IMG/VR virus record: IMGVR_UViG_3300024288_000031
Span: 1-31,770 of that record
From: a virus
DNA length: 31,770 nucleotides
Direction: 5' to 3' (one strand)
In this document: piece by piece, positions 3,001-10,256 of the stretch
Position numbering within the stretch: the stretch's first letter is position 1
Layout of the letters: each line of letters begins with the position of its first letter
The notes under the pieces: generated by a model
What the model was told of the DNA's origin: nothing
Databases searched by the model: none
The model's input: the letters and a program-made list of their open reading frames with translations, nothing else
Translations under genes and position numbers: made by a program

Positions 3001-3277
3001 AAGCGTTGGCCTTGCCACAAGCGTGGCAGCGGACACAGAGAAATCCATTCGTGCTGCAATGAAGGGTCGTGGAGCGTTCAACAAGGAACATGCCGGGAAG
3101 ACTGTGCAAGACTTCCTCACCACCTTTGGCGAATTCTCTGGCATGGCACCAAAGGAGTTTGCGAACATTGCCCGCTTTGGAATTGACTATGCTAACAAGC
3201 AAGCGCACCCGAAAGAGGTTAGCGATTATCTTCGCGGGTTGACTAGAGGCACCGAAAAGAAACGAGTGGAGAAGTGA
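2..3277 (+). CDS. Large virion-associated (probably ejected) protein, 3'-terminal part
   Basis: The reading frame is open to the left edge, so the gene starts before the window; the first internal ATG is at 35 and at least 1090 residues are visible. The protein is long, charged and mostly helical, with no recognisable enzyme motif. A hydrophobic stretch (FMTYVVVPTAIEEYV) lies near residue 930 counted from the ATG at 35, and a second one about 40 residues later. Giant proteins of this kind, placed just before the lysis genes, are typical of podoviruses and are often internal virion proteins ejected into the host; that role is inferred from size and position only. The stop is 1 nt before the endolysin ATG. 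Identity as a phage structural protein is fairly safe, exact function unknown. Confidence 0.7.
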   Translation, partial: GHHRANAIPKAMYDRYLRLIQKRHDADLKASFGQAVVDETRQQTKEWKDNRAAIREQVAGEIHDKSDVIVDRLMSERGGDLKIDPMSIREDLREALPKEYMRRVNSISADNLAAHFGYPSGDALVQSLAELAKDRKAKDLSHADYTRNLIDTETDRRMEAQYGWMEKNILEEAKDRALSENQFDILHEETVFLAQKAGVAPPLPKGALQAALRDGFNNTPIENISSDLWLKAAGKAGRKTEEALLKLDAQTAFKEKQVQFNALSQAKWAHEYEKERGKLDKLAKRLGKIVPGPGKETPIEPEYLNHAQDLLQRVGYKTRRSAENIRENIGRSQSTTVQQFVERKLNDTGGLMDIPLAEFLWDPSFAKPLDELTHQQFADFKNTISALATLGREEQKVYREGEAFDRKQIVSDMNTQVRSFGKKDIPHGYEPSLARQYMAGSTSVETLMNRFDRNDPKGLFHRFVVYPLARAANEQASLEREISVPYRELPKVDNLKKLVTSPFDQRLWKYSTFTRENVLGLLQNAGNRSNWKVAARGWGADPEELMKWLVENTTPEDWARAQQQGKTIFGKLIGMADAKYEHRYGSTIDKIPLEPIENDHGTFEGWYHPLVPDPLWHGKQTLRGGAYEDADFGHIATSNGYTRSRTGSIYPVDLSFNSTPKLIKQMVHDIAFRDAVLDVQKIFKDSSFNDTVTEYYGKEYADLLLPYLRNVAGRESVPSKMLSRINGASEYMRQNTIGTYIGFNPYTVMKHAPTAAVMSVSDVGPTRMARAYANLYGQSPELGKTWYDFAIDKSEELQRRERNWQETLAGTQKQIYGEATMRERMLQWGSWPVALSDKMSAVPLWIARFQKAMDEGSSFGESRDIADRSVRRQHGSTAVTNQPLLVQGGGPFHGWLTSVYGFFGTVMQRRIELVHQANDAWKLGREGEIRAAAAKMPQLFKDFMTYVVVPTAIEEYVTGLSTDNREGYGTHIAKAAIKGTAASFLYLRDLAYAATSGHDPSVGLATSVAADTEKSIRAAMKGRGAFNKEHAGKTVQDFLTTFGEFSGMAPKEFANIARFGIDYANKQAHPKEVSDYLRGLTRGTEKKRVEK

Positions 3278-3278
3278 T

Positions 3279-3929
3279 ATGCTTACATTAGATTTGTTAC
3301 GCAAGCTCTGGCCACATGGGAATATCACCATCCCCGGCTTAGTGGAGGGAATGGCAAAGACTGCGCCTGTGGTGTTCCCTAAGTATGGGATTGACTCAAG
3401 CTTACTCATCGCCCACGTGATGGCACAGTTCTCGGAAGAGACCGACTGCGGCCGCGAGATGCAGGAGAATATGAACTACTCCGCAGGGCGGTTATTGCAG
3501 GTGTTCCCAACCCACTTCTCGCATTCGCAGGCGATTCAGTACCAGCACAACCCACGACAGATCGCAGATCATGCCTATGGTGGACGAATGGGGAACCTGC
3601 CCCCGCCCTCGGATGATGGCTGGAACTTCCGTGGTCAAGGGCTGTCGCAGGTTACCGGCAAGAACGGTTACCAAGCATTGGCAAAGAAATGCGGCCTCGA
3701 TCTCGGTGCCCACCCGGAGCTTATTATCGCCCCAGATACCGCGCTCGAATGTGGCGTTGCGGACTTTGTCCTCTGCGGCTGCCTTCCATACGCACGCAAG
3801 GATGACATCGCCGGCGTTTCGTCAATGCTGAACGTCGGGCACTATACGTCCAATACAGCCCAGATCAATGGGTTTAGCGTTCGCCGAAATTGGTTGGGGT
3901 TGTGGAAACATGCATTGGATATCAAATGA
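3279..3929 (+). CDS. Endolysin, glycoside hydrolase family 19 (chitinase-like lysozyme)
   Basis: This 216-residue protein should cut peptidoglycan glycan strands for host lysis. It shows the GH19 pattern: a helix with the catalytic-acid region AQFSEETDCG (Glu53/Glu54), then ENMNYSAGRL with the second acidic residue near Glu63, then WNFRGQGLSQVTGKNGY around residues 115-131, which is the conserved substrate-groove segment. Length is normal for a single-domain phage GH19 endolysin. No signal peptide is seen, so release would need a holin. The ATG at 3279 has a GGAG Shine-Dalgarno 8 nt upstream. It heads a tightly packed lysis cassette; its TGA overlaps the next ATG (ATGA). Confidence 0.9.
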   Translation: MLTLDLLRKLWPHGNITIPGLVEGMAKTAPVVFPKYGIDSSLLIAHVMAQFSEETDCGREMQENMNYSAGRLLQVFPTHFSHSQAIQYQHNPRQIADHAYGGRMGNLPPPSDDGWNFRGQGLSQVTGKNGYQALAKKCGLDLGAHPELIIAPDTALECGVADFVLCGCLPYARKDDIAGVSSMLNVGHYTSNTAQINGFSVRRNWLGLWKHALDIK

Positions 3930-5685: not shown

Positions 5686-7014
5686 CTATTGCAACCCAGC
5701 AGATTTGATGCCCAACGCCTCTGGCATCAGCGCGTCCATTTCCCCATTATCCACCACCCCAGGTGCGTAGAGAATCACGTTTTTATTCCTTGGATCAAGT
5801 CCGGCTTGTCGCAACATGCCGGACTTTTCCATGACGCCGATGACGCGTTCGACGCTGTGTAGTGGTACACGAGCCTTTGCGAAGTTGATGATCCGATAGG
5901 CGGGAATCTTACGTCCACCTGCACAAGAGGTTAGGACGTAGTGATAGATTTCGTCGATTGCCTTGGCGTCGGCGTTCCCTGCACCAGCCTTGAAAATGTC
6001 GGCCATTGTGTTTTCAGCATCAGTGAGCCAGCTAAGCGCTCTGGTGAAATCATCTCTCGTGAGGAGTAAGACATCACTTCGATCGATAGCTGATACCATA
6101 CTGAGTTTATACAAATGCACACGACGCCGGGTGGCGTAATGAAGAAGCTTTGGATGGGTGGGTGCTGGAGGCTCTCCAGCACCTCTCCACTCTTTAACGG
6201 CTTTTTGATATTCTTCCGTGACTTTGAATTCGCCGATGTTCGACGCGATGCATTTGAGATCATGGACAAGCTCCGGGTTAAGCGTATTGTTCACCATTAT
6301 GAAATCATCGCCGATGGTGCGTTCGTCAGAGAACACCATCACGACACGAGAAGTGAAGCCTTGCTCCCAAGCGTTCTCGGGCATTAGCTTCATTAGGTTG
6401 GAAGGTGTAGTACCGCAGAGAACGTTGAGTTGGGGATATTTGATTTGGATTCGCAATTCGTTTCCGCGTCGCCATTGTCCGTACTCACGTGGATCGTAGA
6501 AGGCGGACATGATTCCGATGACTTCGTCGTCATACTTGTGCATGAAAGCAGTGATTTCATCAGCGGTGATGAACATACTGTTATAATCAAGTGGTGCCTT
6601 CCCTTCTGGATCACGTGGGTCCTTTGCGCTGGGTATGAACCGCTTCGCCTTGATTAACGCATCCACCATGCTAGCGCCGGTGAGGCTGGTGGGGGCTTTG
6701 TGCGGTTCGGGGATTTGGAGATAGTACCGTTCCGCTTCCGTGATGGTTGTGGTCTTCCCCACCCCCGGATGCGCGATCAGGAAGCAATAGATATTCGGCA
6801 CAAGCGGACCGCGATTCGTCGTCAACCACACGCGTTGCTCCAGCGTTGCAGCGACGGTGCTAATCGCCGCCCATCGGCGGAATATCTCCGGGCTCTCCAA
6901 CCTAGCCGTGTTTGCGACGAATGACTCTATCCAAGATACCAATTTTCGGTGCGCGTGTCCGTTTGTCGCTGCCTTTGTAGTCTTTGAGACCGTCTGGATT
7001 GGTCTGCGAATCAT
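5686..7014 (-). CDS. DUF3987-like replicative helicase/ATPase
   Basis: A 442-residue P-loop ATPase. Walker A is AHPGVGKTTT (residues 81-90) and the Walker B-like strand is MFITADE (147-153); a sensor-like LNVLCGTTPSNL follows near residue 195. The N-terminal SPEIFRRWAAISTVAATLEQRVW block is typical of DUF3987-type phage helicases, which serve at replication forks. The ATG at 7014 has AAAGG about 6 nt upstream; a GTG two codons earlier is possible. The conserved N-terminus forces a start inside the polymerase gene, giving a 113-nt overlap. It is the last gene of the minus-strand region. Confidence 0.8.
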   Translation of the reverse strand: MIRRPIQTVSKTTKAATNGHAHRKLVSWIESFVANTARLESPEIFRRWAAISTVAATLEQRVWLTTNRGPLVPNIYCFLIAHPGVGKTTTITEAERYYLQIPEPHKAPTSLTGASMVDALIKAKRFIPSAKDPRDPEGKAPLDYNSMFITADEITAFMHKYDDEVIGIMSAFYDPREYGQWRRGNELRIQIKYPQLNVLCGTTPSNLMKLMPENAWEQGFTSRVVMVFSDERTIGDDFIMVNNTLNPELVHDLKCIASNIGEFKVTEEYQKAVKEWRGAGEPPAPTHPKLLHYATRRRVHLYKLSMVSAIDRSDVLLLTRDDFTRALSWLTDAENTMADIFKAGAGNADAKAIDEIYHYVLTSCAGGRKIPAYRIINFAKARVPLHSVERVIGVMEKSGMLRQAGLDPRNKNVILYAPGVVDNGEMDALMPEALGIKSAGLQ

Positions 7015-8404
7015 AGTCACCTTTATTCCACCCCGTCTTGCAGTCGTAAGGAATGCGCAAGGTGCGACCGTGCGCGAGAGGTATTTCGTGAACGAGGTTC
7101 TCTTGGAGGAACGAGACGACTTCGTCCTCGTGTTCGGTTGGATACATCCAAGTGGTAGCGTCGTGATCGTGCATCATAAGAATCGCACGACGGGAGCGCC
7201 AGACGCGGAGCATACCGGTGTTGACGATGTCGGCTAGGGAGCCTTGCGGATCATACGCTATGGCTTCTCGAACCGTAGAAGGATCGTTTCGTCGCCCAAG
7301 GAAATGTCTCTTACGGCCTGTGAGTGTAACCAGCTTTCCAGTTCGCTTGATCTCACTAGCCACCCATCCTTGCCAAGAAAGGTGAGACGGGAAGGCGGCG
7401 AAGTAGGTTGGCTGGAATTGCTGAACGACTCGGACGGGTAGTTCAGCTTGAGCCGCGAGCGTATCTGGCTCTCCTCCATAGTTGCTCCCATGTCCGAGCT
7501 TCTTGCACATAAATCGATATGTATAGTGGCGGTAGTACGGTTGTTCTGCGATGTTTTTATCTCTACCGATATTGCCTGTCCATCCGAGATTAGGCCAGCA
7601 GATTCTAGCCACTGCTGTATGAATGTCTCCAGATTCAACTGCATCTAGGTATCTCCCGTCTTTGAAGAGGTTCCATTCGATTCCGCCGACGCAGTAGGAT
7701 TCGCCAGCTTTTGCGTCGAGCTTTGCGAACTTATATCCCGCGTCAGCGATGAAGATGCTTCTAAGGCTTTCTTCGACGTTCTGCAAATTTCCGCCAGTGC
7801 CAAACTCGCTAAAAGAAGAACTAAAGCGGCCAGTGCTAGTTCCAGCGATATTGTACGAAGTACGCATTCTACCGTCATTGTCGATATCCGTTTGGAGGAC
7901 TGAGATTTTCTTCGCGAGATCACGCATTTTGAGGATGTGGTTGACGATCTGGCGAGCGCGAATGTAGAGCCAGAGCTTTTCGAGGGCCTTGCGATCGGTG
8001 GTAACAGAGCCTTTCTTGCGGATTTCTGGCAGGCCCAAGCGGGTGTAGAATAAGTCTTTCAGATCGTCGTTGCTACGCCAGTTGAAACGGAGGAGTCCTA
8101 CACCGTCGCAGACTATTCGGTGGAGTTGGCGGTCGAGGATGTCGATTTGGGTGTAGAACTCGTCGATGACCTCGGCCTTGCGTGCAGCGTCCACCAGAAC
8201 ACCCCGCAGTCGCATATCAAGTGCAGGTCCTTGCAAGGCACGGGAGAAAGCATAAGTGGGCTCTGTGTGTTCATCCAATTGGGGCAGTATACTTTCCAAA
8301 ACCTCGAGAGTAATTGCGCAGTCGAGTCCGTTGTAGATTTGCTCGCGCTCGAATTGGTCAGAGACGGAGTTTGGGGATTGTTCATGGGTGCGAATGATCC
8401 TCAC
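6902..8404 (-). CDS. Family A DNA polymerase, C-terminal piece (ExoIII motif plus polymerase domain)
   Basis: A 500-residue protein carrying the polymerase domain. The N-terminus has YNGLDCAITLEVLE, where Tyr24 and Asp28 form motif ExoIII of a DEDDy proofreading nuclease. TSTGRFSSS lies near 189-197. Motif A is FAKLDAKAGES (Asp230, Glu235), motif B spans Arg297-Gly310 (RFMCKKLGHGSNYG), and motif C is MHDHD (His412-Asp413). The rest of the exonuclease is encoded upstream, beyond an inserted endonuclease gene. I chose the GTG at 8404, 2 nt after the endonuclease stop; its Shine-Dalgarno is weak, and a TTG at 8452 would overlap that gene. It is the probable replicative polymerase when joined with its partner. 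Confidence 0.85.
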   Translation of the reverse strand: MRIIRTHEQSPNSVSDQFEREQIYNGLDCAITLEVLESILPQLDEHTEPTYAFSRALQGPALDMRLRGVLVDAARKAEVIDEFYTQIDILDRQLHRIVCDGVGLLRFNWRSNDDLKDLFYTRLGLPEIRKKGSVTTDRKALEKLWLYIRARQIVNHILKMRDLAKKISVLQTDIDNDGRMRTSYNIAGTSTGRFSSSFSEFGTGGNLQNVEESLRSIFIADAGYKFAKLDAKAGESYCVGGIEWNLFKDGRYLDAVESGDIHTAVARICWPNLGWTGNIGRDKNIAEQPYYRHYTYRFMCKKLGHGSNYGGEPDTLAAQAELPVRVVQQFQPTYFAAFPSHLSWQGWVASEIKRTGKLVTLTGRKRHFLGRRNDPSTVREAIAYDPQGSLADIVNTGMLRVWRSRRAILMMHDHDATTWMYPTEHEDEVVSFLQENLVHEIPLAHGRTLRIPYDCKTGWNKGDYDSQTNPDGLKDYKGSDKRTRAPKIGILDRVIRRKHG

Positions 8405-8406
8405 GT

Positions 8407-8841
8407 TTATTCGCCATATTTCTTTAGATATTCTAATGCTCTCAATACCCAATCTTTAGAACCTAACATACTATTACAACGAACGCATAAGATACCACGC
8501 ACATCGCCTGTGCTATGATTGTGATCGACGTAAGCTGTAACTCGATTGCCTACTTTGTCAAAGGTTAATGGCATTTCACAAATACCACATTTCCCTTCTT
8601 GTTCTTCTAGAAGTTTTTCTGGGTCACAATTTCTTCCATCACGACGTGCTCGCATAAATCGAGCAACACAGATTTTACAGGTGCTGTAGAAACCATCTAT
8701 GGTAGCTTTATCTTGTGAAAAATAATTGCTGAATAATTTGATGGATACATCCTCATCGTTAAATCCAACATGTGCTTTATCGCATCTAGGACATATTTTT
8801 GTGTATGCTTGCAGCTTTGGATCGTAACTATATTCAGGCAA
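8407..8841 (-). CDS. Endonuclease VII-like HNH endonuclease inserted in the polymerase gene
   Basis: A 144-residue zinc-rich nuclease. Cysteine pairs C17/C20 and C55/C58 form an N-terminal zinc ribbon region; C85/C88 and C119/C122 with VDHNHSTGDVRGILCVRCN (about 105-123) form the treble-clef HNH core seen in T4 endonuclease VII relatives. It starts with TTG directly after the TAA of the upstream gene, in the same frame, with GGGAGGAG as Shine-Dalgarno. The DNA is clearly richer in A+T than both flanking polymerase pieces, which points to later arrival. Likely a homing endonuclease rather than a resolvase, judged by its position inside an essential gene. Confidence 0.88.
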   Translation of the reverse strand: MPEYSYDPKLQAYTKICPRCDKAHVGFNDEDVSIKLFSNYFSQDKATIDGFYSTCKICVARFMRARRDGRNCDPEKLLEEQEGKCGICEMPLTFDKVGNRVTAYVDHNHSTGDVRGILCVRCNSMLGSKDWVLRALEYLKKYGE

Positions 8842-9942
8842 TTACTCCTCCCTTTTGATAGTTTCGGTGTGACGCCGTTCTGATTTCCAAGGCCCGTGAT
8901 TTGTATAAAGGCTTCCAAGGTACCCAAGGCCCTTTAGTGCTTCTGGCTGTAAAGCATGATGTAAGAGCATGCTATCGTGTAAAGCACCAAATACTCTTAT
9001 TCCGTAGCTTCGCAATAAAAATGCAATATCGTACAACCCATTCTGGAACACCTTGCGTATTTCTGCATCCTCAAGGACCGAACGTATAAGCTCCCAGCAT
9101 CGTCGTTCAAGCTCTGGAGTAGGCCAATAACTTTTTCCCGCCTTTCTGGGGTCATCGAACGGAATAACGAGAGCAAGGTCTCGTCGTGGAGCGAAGCCCA
9201 TGCATGTAATGCGCGTGCCAGAGGTTTCAATGTCGCAAGCAATAAGCTGGCTTGCTTTGATGTGGGTTTGGATGAAGGTATGTATATCATCTAAATCGGG
9301 CTCTATCCATATCTCACACGGTGGGCGATCTAACGTCCCTGTCTGGCTAGCCGAAACAGCCTTTGACAAATCCGCGATTGTTGTCGGACGTAGCTCATAC
9401 TGGCGGAGGACGGCAGCTGGATGATAGCAAACAAGCAGTTTGTAACCAGCAACGCAATGAGTGCTGAGTACAGTAGTCCCGCGGAGCTTGCTAACACCGG
9501 TGCGTCCAGTAAGAGCCCAGACAGCAGAATTACCAAGGCAGATAATAAGATTAGGATCGTGCTCCAGAATCTCATCGCCGAGACGATCAAGCTCGGGGGC
9601 GAATTCAGCGCGGGTGTATTTGCTTGGGAGTAGTGGCCCGTATCCCGGGATGCCATCGGCCTTCCCGCCGCAGAAGTGTTCGAGGCGGTTGCTGGGTGGG
9701 TGGCGGTTGAATACGTTCGTGCGGTAGACCTCCGGGTGGCCTTCCCATATCTTGGCGAGATGCTTAGGGTCTCCAGTTCGGTAATAGAGATCAATGCGGT
9801 TTCGCTCTCCTTGGGTAAGGGATATGACTTCCGCTTCATGGAGTTGCCTCATGAGTTCGACGCCGGAAGAGCCGACGAATGGGGTCGAGAGACGGGCCTC
9901 GTTCTCGCCCCACGCTTCGCCGACGAGGAAGATTGGTTTCAC
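8842..9942 (-). CDS. Uracil-DNA glycosylase-like domain fused to DNA polymerase exonuclease part (ExoI, ExoII)
   Basis: A 366-residue fusion. Residues 1-200 resemble the UDG superfamily: FLVGEAWGENEA (5-16) as motif 1, TNVFNRHPPSNR (75-86), and the CYHPAAVLRQ motif (172-181). Residues about 230-345 are a DnaQ-like nuclease with ACDIETSG (Asp237, Glu239; ExoI) and FQNGLYDIAFL (Asn301, Asp305; ExoII). ExoIII is missing because the gene is cut by the endonuclease gene downstream. It could remove uracil or scan template DNA at the fork. The GTG at 9942 overlaps the previous stop as GTGA; a GTG four codons earlier (9954) is an alternative. Confidence 0.85.
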   Translation of the reverse strand: MKPIFLVGEAWGENEARLSTPFVGSSGVELMRQLHEAEVISLTQGERNRIDLYYRTGDPKHLAKIWEGHPEVYRTNVFNRHPPSNRLEHFCGGKADGIPGYGPLLPSKYTRAEFAPELDRLGDEILEHDPNLIICLGNSAVWALTGRTGVSKLRGTTVLSTHCVAGYKLLVCYHPAAVLRQYELRPTTIADLSKAVSASQTGTLDRPPCEIWIEPDLDDIHTFIQTHIKASQLIACDIETSGTRITCMGFAPRRDLALVIPFDDPRKAGKSYWPTPELERRCWELIRSVLEDAEIRKVFQNGLYDIAFLLRSYGIRVFGALHDSMLLHHALQPEALKGLGYLGSLYTNHGPWKSERRHTETIKREE

Positions 9943-10256
9943 CGAGTGAGCCACAGCGTCATTTGGCGCAGCAAGAGTTTCACTTGATCATTGTTGAGGA
10001 TCAAGTCTTGCGATTCGCCTACGGTTGTGATTCGCAGTATGGGATAGCCATCATCTTCGAGGAAAGTAATGAGCGTGCGTTCGTTACCTTTGAGATTGAG
10101 GACAGTGAAGGCACTGTGTTCGATTTCAGTTGTAGCGGGTGCTTCAATTCGCACAGTCTGGGTTGTGGACAACGCACGATCGCGAAGGCTAGGGCTGCGT
10201 TTGGGAATGAACTTAGCGAGTTCGTTGTCGATGTCGTCTAGATTTGGTGCTTGCAT
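9939..10256 (-). CDS. Hypothetical protein upstream of the polymerase genes
   Basis: A 105-residue protein without a recognised motif. Residues 1-45 are polar and probably flexible; the C-terminal part has alternating strands and a final helix (NNDQVKLLLRQMTLWLTR). The ATG at 10256 has GGAG 6 nt upstream, better than an upstream ATG that would extend through a terminator hairpin. It is the first gene after that hairpin, and its TGA overlaps the GTG of the UDG-exonuclease gene, so it probably belongs to the polymerase unit. Confidence 0.6.
   Translation of the reverse strand: MQAPNLDDIDNELAKFIPKRSPSLRDRALSTTQTVRIEAPATTEIEHSAFTVLNLKGNERTLITFLEDDGYPILRITTVGESQDLILNNDQVKLLLRQMTLWLTR

Follow-up and report, generated by a model that had tools for sequence, protein, structure and literature searches.

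A family A phage DNA polymerase divided between ExoII and ExoIII throughout its lineage, with an endonuclease gene as a later arrival at the junction

The polymerase locus

We analyzed a viral DNA of 31,770 nucleotides (IMG/VR record IMGVR_UViG_3300024288_000031, positions 1 to 31,770; hereafter the window), in which a family A DNA polymerase is encoded in two pieces. The upstream gene specifies a uracil-DNA glycosylase (UDG) domain followed by the first part of a DnaQ-like 3'-5' exonuclease (UDG-exo), the downstream gene specifies the polymerase domain (Pol), and a gene for an endonuclease VII-like protein (EndoVII) lies between them. An earlier note, made from the sequence alone, had described a polymerase cut between the proofreading motifs ExoII and ExoIII by the endonuclease gene. 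The cut is where the note placed it, with ExoI and ExoII on UDG-exo and ExoIII on Pol; the split, however, preceded the window's endonuclease. The features of the locus are as follows.

8842-9954, minus strand: UDG-exo protein, 370 amino acids, GTG start, with an alternative in-frame GTG at 9942
9226-9234, minus strand: ExoI, codons of Asp241 and Glu243, invariant in 71 split homologues and likewise in fused ones
9028-9042, minus strand: ExoII, codons Asn305 to Asp309, invariant in 71 split homologues
8845-8862, minus strand: UDG-exo C-terminal tail TIKREE, specific to split proteins, in whose homologues TIKRD(E/D/A) is the commonest ending
8405-8844, minus strand: stretch of 440 nt inserted at the old gene junction and missing in the nearest relative (L020/L110)
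8407-8841, minus strand: EndoVII-like endonuclease, 144 amino acids, TTG start immediately past the UDG-exo stop
6902-8404, minus strand: Pol protein with family A palm, fingers and thumb (PF00476, 4e-30), beginning with the last exonuclease helix
8336-8404, minus strand: Pol N-terminal extension VRIIRTHEQSP..., 23 amino acids ahead of Tyr24, kept in split and missing in fused proteins
8321-8335, minus strand: ExoIII, codons Tyr24 to Asp28 of Pol, with Tyr and Asp invariant in split and fused proteins

Both sequence and predicted fold point to a type-4/UdgX-like UDG domain in UDG-exo: its Pfam match is to UDG (PF03167, 1.7e-13), and residues 4 to 207 of its AlphaFold2 model (pLDDT 94) align to UDG structures 1ui1 and 6l6s with a Z score of 17.6. 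The exonuclease match (DNA_pol_A_exo1, 1.6e-6) covers residues 232 to 350 only. In the model, residues 211 to 370 align to Klenow residues 324 to 497 (Z 15.9), and the chain ends at Klenow 497, which places the break in the loop just ahead of Klenow Tyr497/Asp501. The residues that the earlier note numbered 237, 239, 301 and 305, counting from the GTG at 9942, are Asp241, Glu243, Asn305 and Asp309 when counted from 9954, to which we moved the start of the gene. Its Pol start, the GTG at 8404 from which Tyr24 and Asp28 are numbered, stands: although the reading frame extends back to a TTG at 8452, relatives show that the gene begins at 8404. Pol shows the conserved motif A Asp, motif B Lys/His/Tyr and motif C His-Asp along with its PF00476 match, as in Klenow-type family A polymerases.

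The EndoVII protein matches PF02945 (Endonuclease_7) at 1e-15 and has all of the zinc cysteines (85, 88, 119 and 122) and the active-site Asp106-His107...Asn123; compared with T4 EndoVII (1e7d; E = 3.6e-4), it shares the pattern C-x2-C ... DH ... C-x2-C-N. Its open reading frame (ORF) takes up 435 of the 440 nt that separate the last UDG-exo sense codon from the Pol GTG (8844-8405), so that the gene does sit exactly between the pieces. It shares the reading frame of UDG-exo, from which a single TAA separates it, and it is AT-rich (GC 0.37, versus 0.52 in its flanks). By eye, the UDG-exo tail also contains a Shine-Dalgarno-like GGGAGGAG right ahead of the EndoVII TTG.

Split and fused relatives

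The polymerase, used first to scan viral contigs, matched at 25 loci, in which UDG-exo and Pol were two ORFs wherever the contig reached far enough upstream; no EndoVII gene was present at the junction in any of the loci with that reach. Profile scans and a scan seeded with fused proteins widened the set to 327 loci with a polymerase hit, made up of 235 split loci (including a few members of the fused lineage with a break at another place, either past ExoIII or between UDG and exonuclease), 75 fused loci and 17 without an upstream UDG-exo match, mostly at contig ends. After dereplication, 123 split polymerases (the window included) and 35 fused ones remained. All 123 members of the window's lineage carry the same two genes with the same cut point, and a sister lineage encodes UDG, exonuclease and polymerase as one continuous protein. 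The uninterrupted homologues against which the earlier note had proposed to align the pieces thus exist, and were aligned. The same note had named normally independent genes as an outcome that would speak against its reading; within the window's lineage the pieces are indeed two genes, often with overlapping stop and start codons.

A tree of these 123 split and 35 fused polymerases contained exactly one change between the two states (SH-aLRT support 100), as did a second tree built with a mixture model on other rows (support 97); neither tree fixes the root. In family A polymerases that have the exonuclease, Klenow among them, ExoI, ExoII and ExoIII lie on one chain, an arrangement from which the window's lineage departs, and for that reason we take the split state as derived.

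The motifs themselves are retained on both chains. Not one of 71 aligned split UDG-exo proteins departs from the ExoI and ExoII residues, which are invariant in fused ones too, and every aligned Pol protein, whether split or fused, has the ExoIII Tyr and Asp, with varying letters between them (YNGLD, YCGLD, YNGID). With none of the six residues varying among aligned relatives, chance matching can be set aside as an explanation of the motifs. Of 116 split loci counted with regular expressions, 102 had all three motifs; the misses that were printed mostly had variant letters (YNGID, YNGVD, YNGTD) or an upstream frame open beyond the search window. Among the misses was L024, with its exonuclease in a third ORF. 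There (L024:1911-5515; L176 is the same contig), the polymerase of a split-lineage member is apparently in three pieces, in the order UDG (ending at 2690), a 121-amino-acid ORF resembling a helix-turn-helix protein, an exonuclease-only ORF (3029-3439), two small ORFs and Pol.

The two chains also differ from the fused protein at the break. In a model of the fused homologue L257 (pLDDT 92), the equivalent of the break is a loop that runs from helix 324-331 to the ExoIII helix at 352-378. Fused proteins bridge this region with a linker of 17 amino acids in total, whereas split UDG-exo proteins continue for a median of 13 amino acids past a WK motif, with TIKRDE-like endings, and the Pol proteins of split loci have a median of 22 amino acids ahead of ExoIII (103 loci), starting M[RK]IIxT. 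These conserved extra ends hint at an assembly interface without demonstrating one.

As a separate observation on the polymerase domain, split and fused members alike have His (KKLGHGSNYGG) at the motif B position of Escherichia coli Phe762; a PolA survey discusses Tyr, Phe and Leu (PMC6302109).

Origin of the split and history of the junction

The nearest complete relative of the window, L020, is 75% identical in Pol and 70% in UDG-exo. At the L020/L110 junction the stop of UDG-exo (TGA) and the start of Pol (GTG) overlap (...GATGAGTGAGGATAATC...) and there is no insert, and at the equivalent spot the window reads ...GAGGAGTAATTG, then EndoVII, then ...GAATAAACGTGAGGATC. Together with L110 and L034 the window forms a clade of three rows (support 97 to 99) whose members hold EndoVII, nothing and an HNH gene, respectively, at one seam, which indicates fast turnover there. 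Its patchy presence among kin (absent from L020/L110, with HNH in L034) and its deviant base composition suggest that the EndoVII-like gene is probably a homing-type endonuclease and a recent entrant.

Other members of the lineage vary in the same way. Of 123 split junctions, 30 have a gap of no more than 30 nt, and in 21 of these the stop and start overlap by 1 or 4 nt (ATGA, GTGA, TAATG); at 92 of the 123 loci the junction is occupied, with at least 100 nt. The usual occupants are small ORFs of many unrelated families, among them DUF7768, DUF7220, DUF1937, MazG-like, HNH, LAGLIDADG, GIY-YIG and EndoVII. The next seam downstream, between Pol and DUF3987, is occupied in only 20 of 121 loci (p about 1e-20). 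The DUF3987 protein itself (window 5686-7020) comes after Pol and overlaps its end, an order retained in most relatives, and HNH genes occupy the Pol-DUF3987 seam in several kin.

One account makes the EndoVII-like gene the agent that broke a formerly intact polymerase gene, in this phage or a recent ancestor. The gene's exact position between the pieces and its AT-richness suggest this account, which has precedent in T4-like phages, where nrdA and gene 60 were split by homing endonucleases (PMC2988022). We reject it as the cause, and as an account of this locus it is very unlikely. A gene split by insertion, of the mobE/nrdA type, is continuous in the nearest uninterrupted relatives, but here the nearest relatives without the insert are split too. 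Split relatives without EndoVII, cut at the window's position, extend down to about 40% identity, and most have no endonuclease of any kind; the only other EndoVII junction, L096, is 36% identical and not close in the tree. A search with EndoVII confirmed no relatives of it in viral contigs, L096 having surfaced only via the polymerase. An older mobile endonuclease, later lost or replaced by other small genes, is a more serious candidate for the original fission, which we regard as possible though somewhat doubtful. HNH, LAGLIDADG, GIY-YIG and EndoVII genes are present in the seam today, and other breaks in the superfamily contain HNH-looking or unknown ORFs (between UDG and exonuclease in L310 and L331; after an NLQN motif in L033, L325 and L330), but about a quarter of the junctions are empty, most occupants are not endonucleases and no ancestral occupant can be reconstructed.

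The earlier note had offered assembly in trans or RNA splicing as ways to restore proofreading, of which we favor the former. Rejoining of the pieces by intron splicing, frameshifting or stop readthrough could draw on the shared frame and single TAA between UDG-exo and EndoVII, and other phage polymerase genes bear group I introns (cited in PMC10580990). We nonetheless judge it highly improbable: the EndoVII ORF all but fills the insert, the overlapping junctions of kin leave no room for an intron and most other junctions hold unrelated small ORFs. No group I or II intron was matched by Rfam in 7800-9500, where the sole hit up to an E value of 1 was an unrelated small RNA (E = 0.87). Programmed frameshifting as a general rule is ruled out by the unrelated ORFs and gaps between the frames at many loci; no slippery-site search was made. 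It is also conceivable that UDG-exo works alone, in repair, and that the polymerase has lost proofreading, given that as much as about 1.2 kb can separate the two genes in relatives. Against this, the invariant ExoIII Tyr and Asp would have no evident use in the Pol chain without the other chain, ExoI and ExoII are just as invariant in the UDG-exo chain, and the genes remain neighbors in unchanged order; we think this account improbable.

We are left with a history that we consider very probable, of one old fission fixed across the clade, proofreading completed in trans by a two-chain polymerase and a junction that later served as a slot for small genes. On a single, ancient occasion a UDG-exonuclease-polymerase gene would have come apart at the loop that separates ExoII from ExoIII, and the break would have gone to fixation in the ancestor of what is now a large lineage of phages. 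The resulting two proteins, made from adjacent and often overlapping genes whose overlaps may couple their translation, would then re-associate, with the ExoIII helix of the Pol chain completing the proofreading site on the UDG-exo chain. The junction would have become a tolerated slot, which the EndoVII-like, probably homing-type, endonuclease presumably entered recently in the window's ancestry. Its insertion would have set GGGAGGAG of the UDG-exo tail ahead of the EndoVII TTG, and EndoVII may therefore use a ribosome-binding site that served the ancestral Pol, which may itself now depend on re-initiation.

Several points weigh against this history or parts of it. The structure models are of single chains only. 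Nearly all split loci are metagenomic contigs, Caulobacter phage Kuura being the isolate with the split, and matches in genome contigs fall in metagenome-assembled genomes of mixed phyla that are probably stray viral contigs, for which we claim no host. The initial cause of the fission may have been an older mobile gene. Endonucleases, counted as Pfam hits plus proteins clustering with those (such as L210, which has no Pfam hit itself), are not significantly enriched in the split seam, with 11 of 123 loci against 6 of 121 at the Pol-DUF3987 seam (p = 0.31). Taken with the general occupancy of the junction, this result means that the seam tolerates insertions at large and has no particular attraction for endonucleases.

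Comparison with known systems

Split phage polymerases are already known. In Aeromonas phages 44RR and 25, gp43 is split as 43A and 43B; phage 25 has a seg endonuclease at the split, which may have invaded an already split gene, and its chains co-purify with polymerase activity (PMC2988022). The likeness is of a phage replicative polymerase in two chains, but gp43 is a family B enzyme, split in few phages and without a UDG domain, whereas the window's lineage has a family A enzyme that is split clade-wide and cut within the exonuclease active site. In phage Aeh1, nrdA is split by mobE into two chains that still make an active enzyme, with an HNH endonuclease gene between them to which the review attributes the split (PMC2988022). 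That too is an essential enzyme in two chains with an endonuclease gene in the gap; it is, however, a ribonucleotide reductase, and in the window's lineage the endonuclease is not the cause. The OM43 phages MEP401 and MEP402 belong to a group in which a family A polymerase is commonly encoded by two genes that flank a small ORF (PMC10580990), but there the exonuclease domain is intact and the break lies inside the polymerase domain, as it also does in some relatives from the fused lineage (L033, L303, L325, L327 and L330), directly past NLQN.

Homologous in sequence are the polymerases of Microcystis phage Mel-JY34 and of phiLo (9qhs, the top Foldseek hit of the UDG-exo model), which have the same UDG-exonuclease-polymerase order but as one continuous chain. 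Kuura (OQ067476) belongs to the same split lineage, with separate UDG-exo and Pol and two unrelated small ORFs between; UDG-exo is annotated there as a 'hypothetical protein', and the consulted portion of its report gives only a DNA polymerase, the split going unmentioned (PMC9959647). Searches of the open-access literature brought up nothing that matched a UDG-PolA split, nor did we find a previous account of a family A polymerase split within its exonuclease site across a whole clade.

The fused lineage has irregularities of its own. L303, L325, L326, L327, L330 and L033 (Vibrio phage VS-ABTNL-3) share a different, recurrent break point, which follows NLQN(I/L)P directly and precedes polymerase motif A; the gap may or may not contain an unrelated ORF, and the one in L330 looks by eye like a dUTPase. 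In L310:678-3383 and L331:3994-6666, an ORF that looks by eye like HNH separates UDG from exonuclease-polymerase. Four fused polymerases (L305, L307, L308 and L311; about 1,092 to 1,116 amino acids) have some 280 extra in-frame residues in the polymerase domain; this insert has no Pfam match and is possibly an intein or a domain insertion.

We consider it likely, with less assurance than the history above, that this lineage copies its DNA with a family A polymerase that requires both chains and shares its proofreading site between them, that the tails acquired after the split (C-terminal TIKRDE, N-terminal M[RK]IIxT) hold the chains together and that small genes, among them homing endonucleases, have long been landing at the seam. 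The usual story of split phage polymerases is one of recent accidents caused by endonucleases; the dense sampling here gives the reverse order. With an old, fixed fission in an active site and an endonuclease that came later, the sharing of a proofreading center by two polypeptides becomes testable, as do the tails as possible assembly devices and chain separation as a means by which phages might tune fidelity. For annotation, a 'hypothetical protein' beside a short PolA, as in Kuura, conceals half a polymerase.

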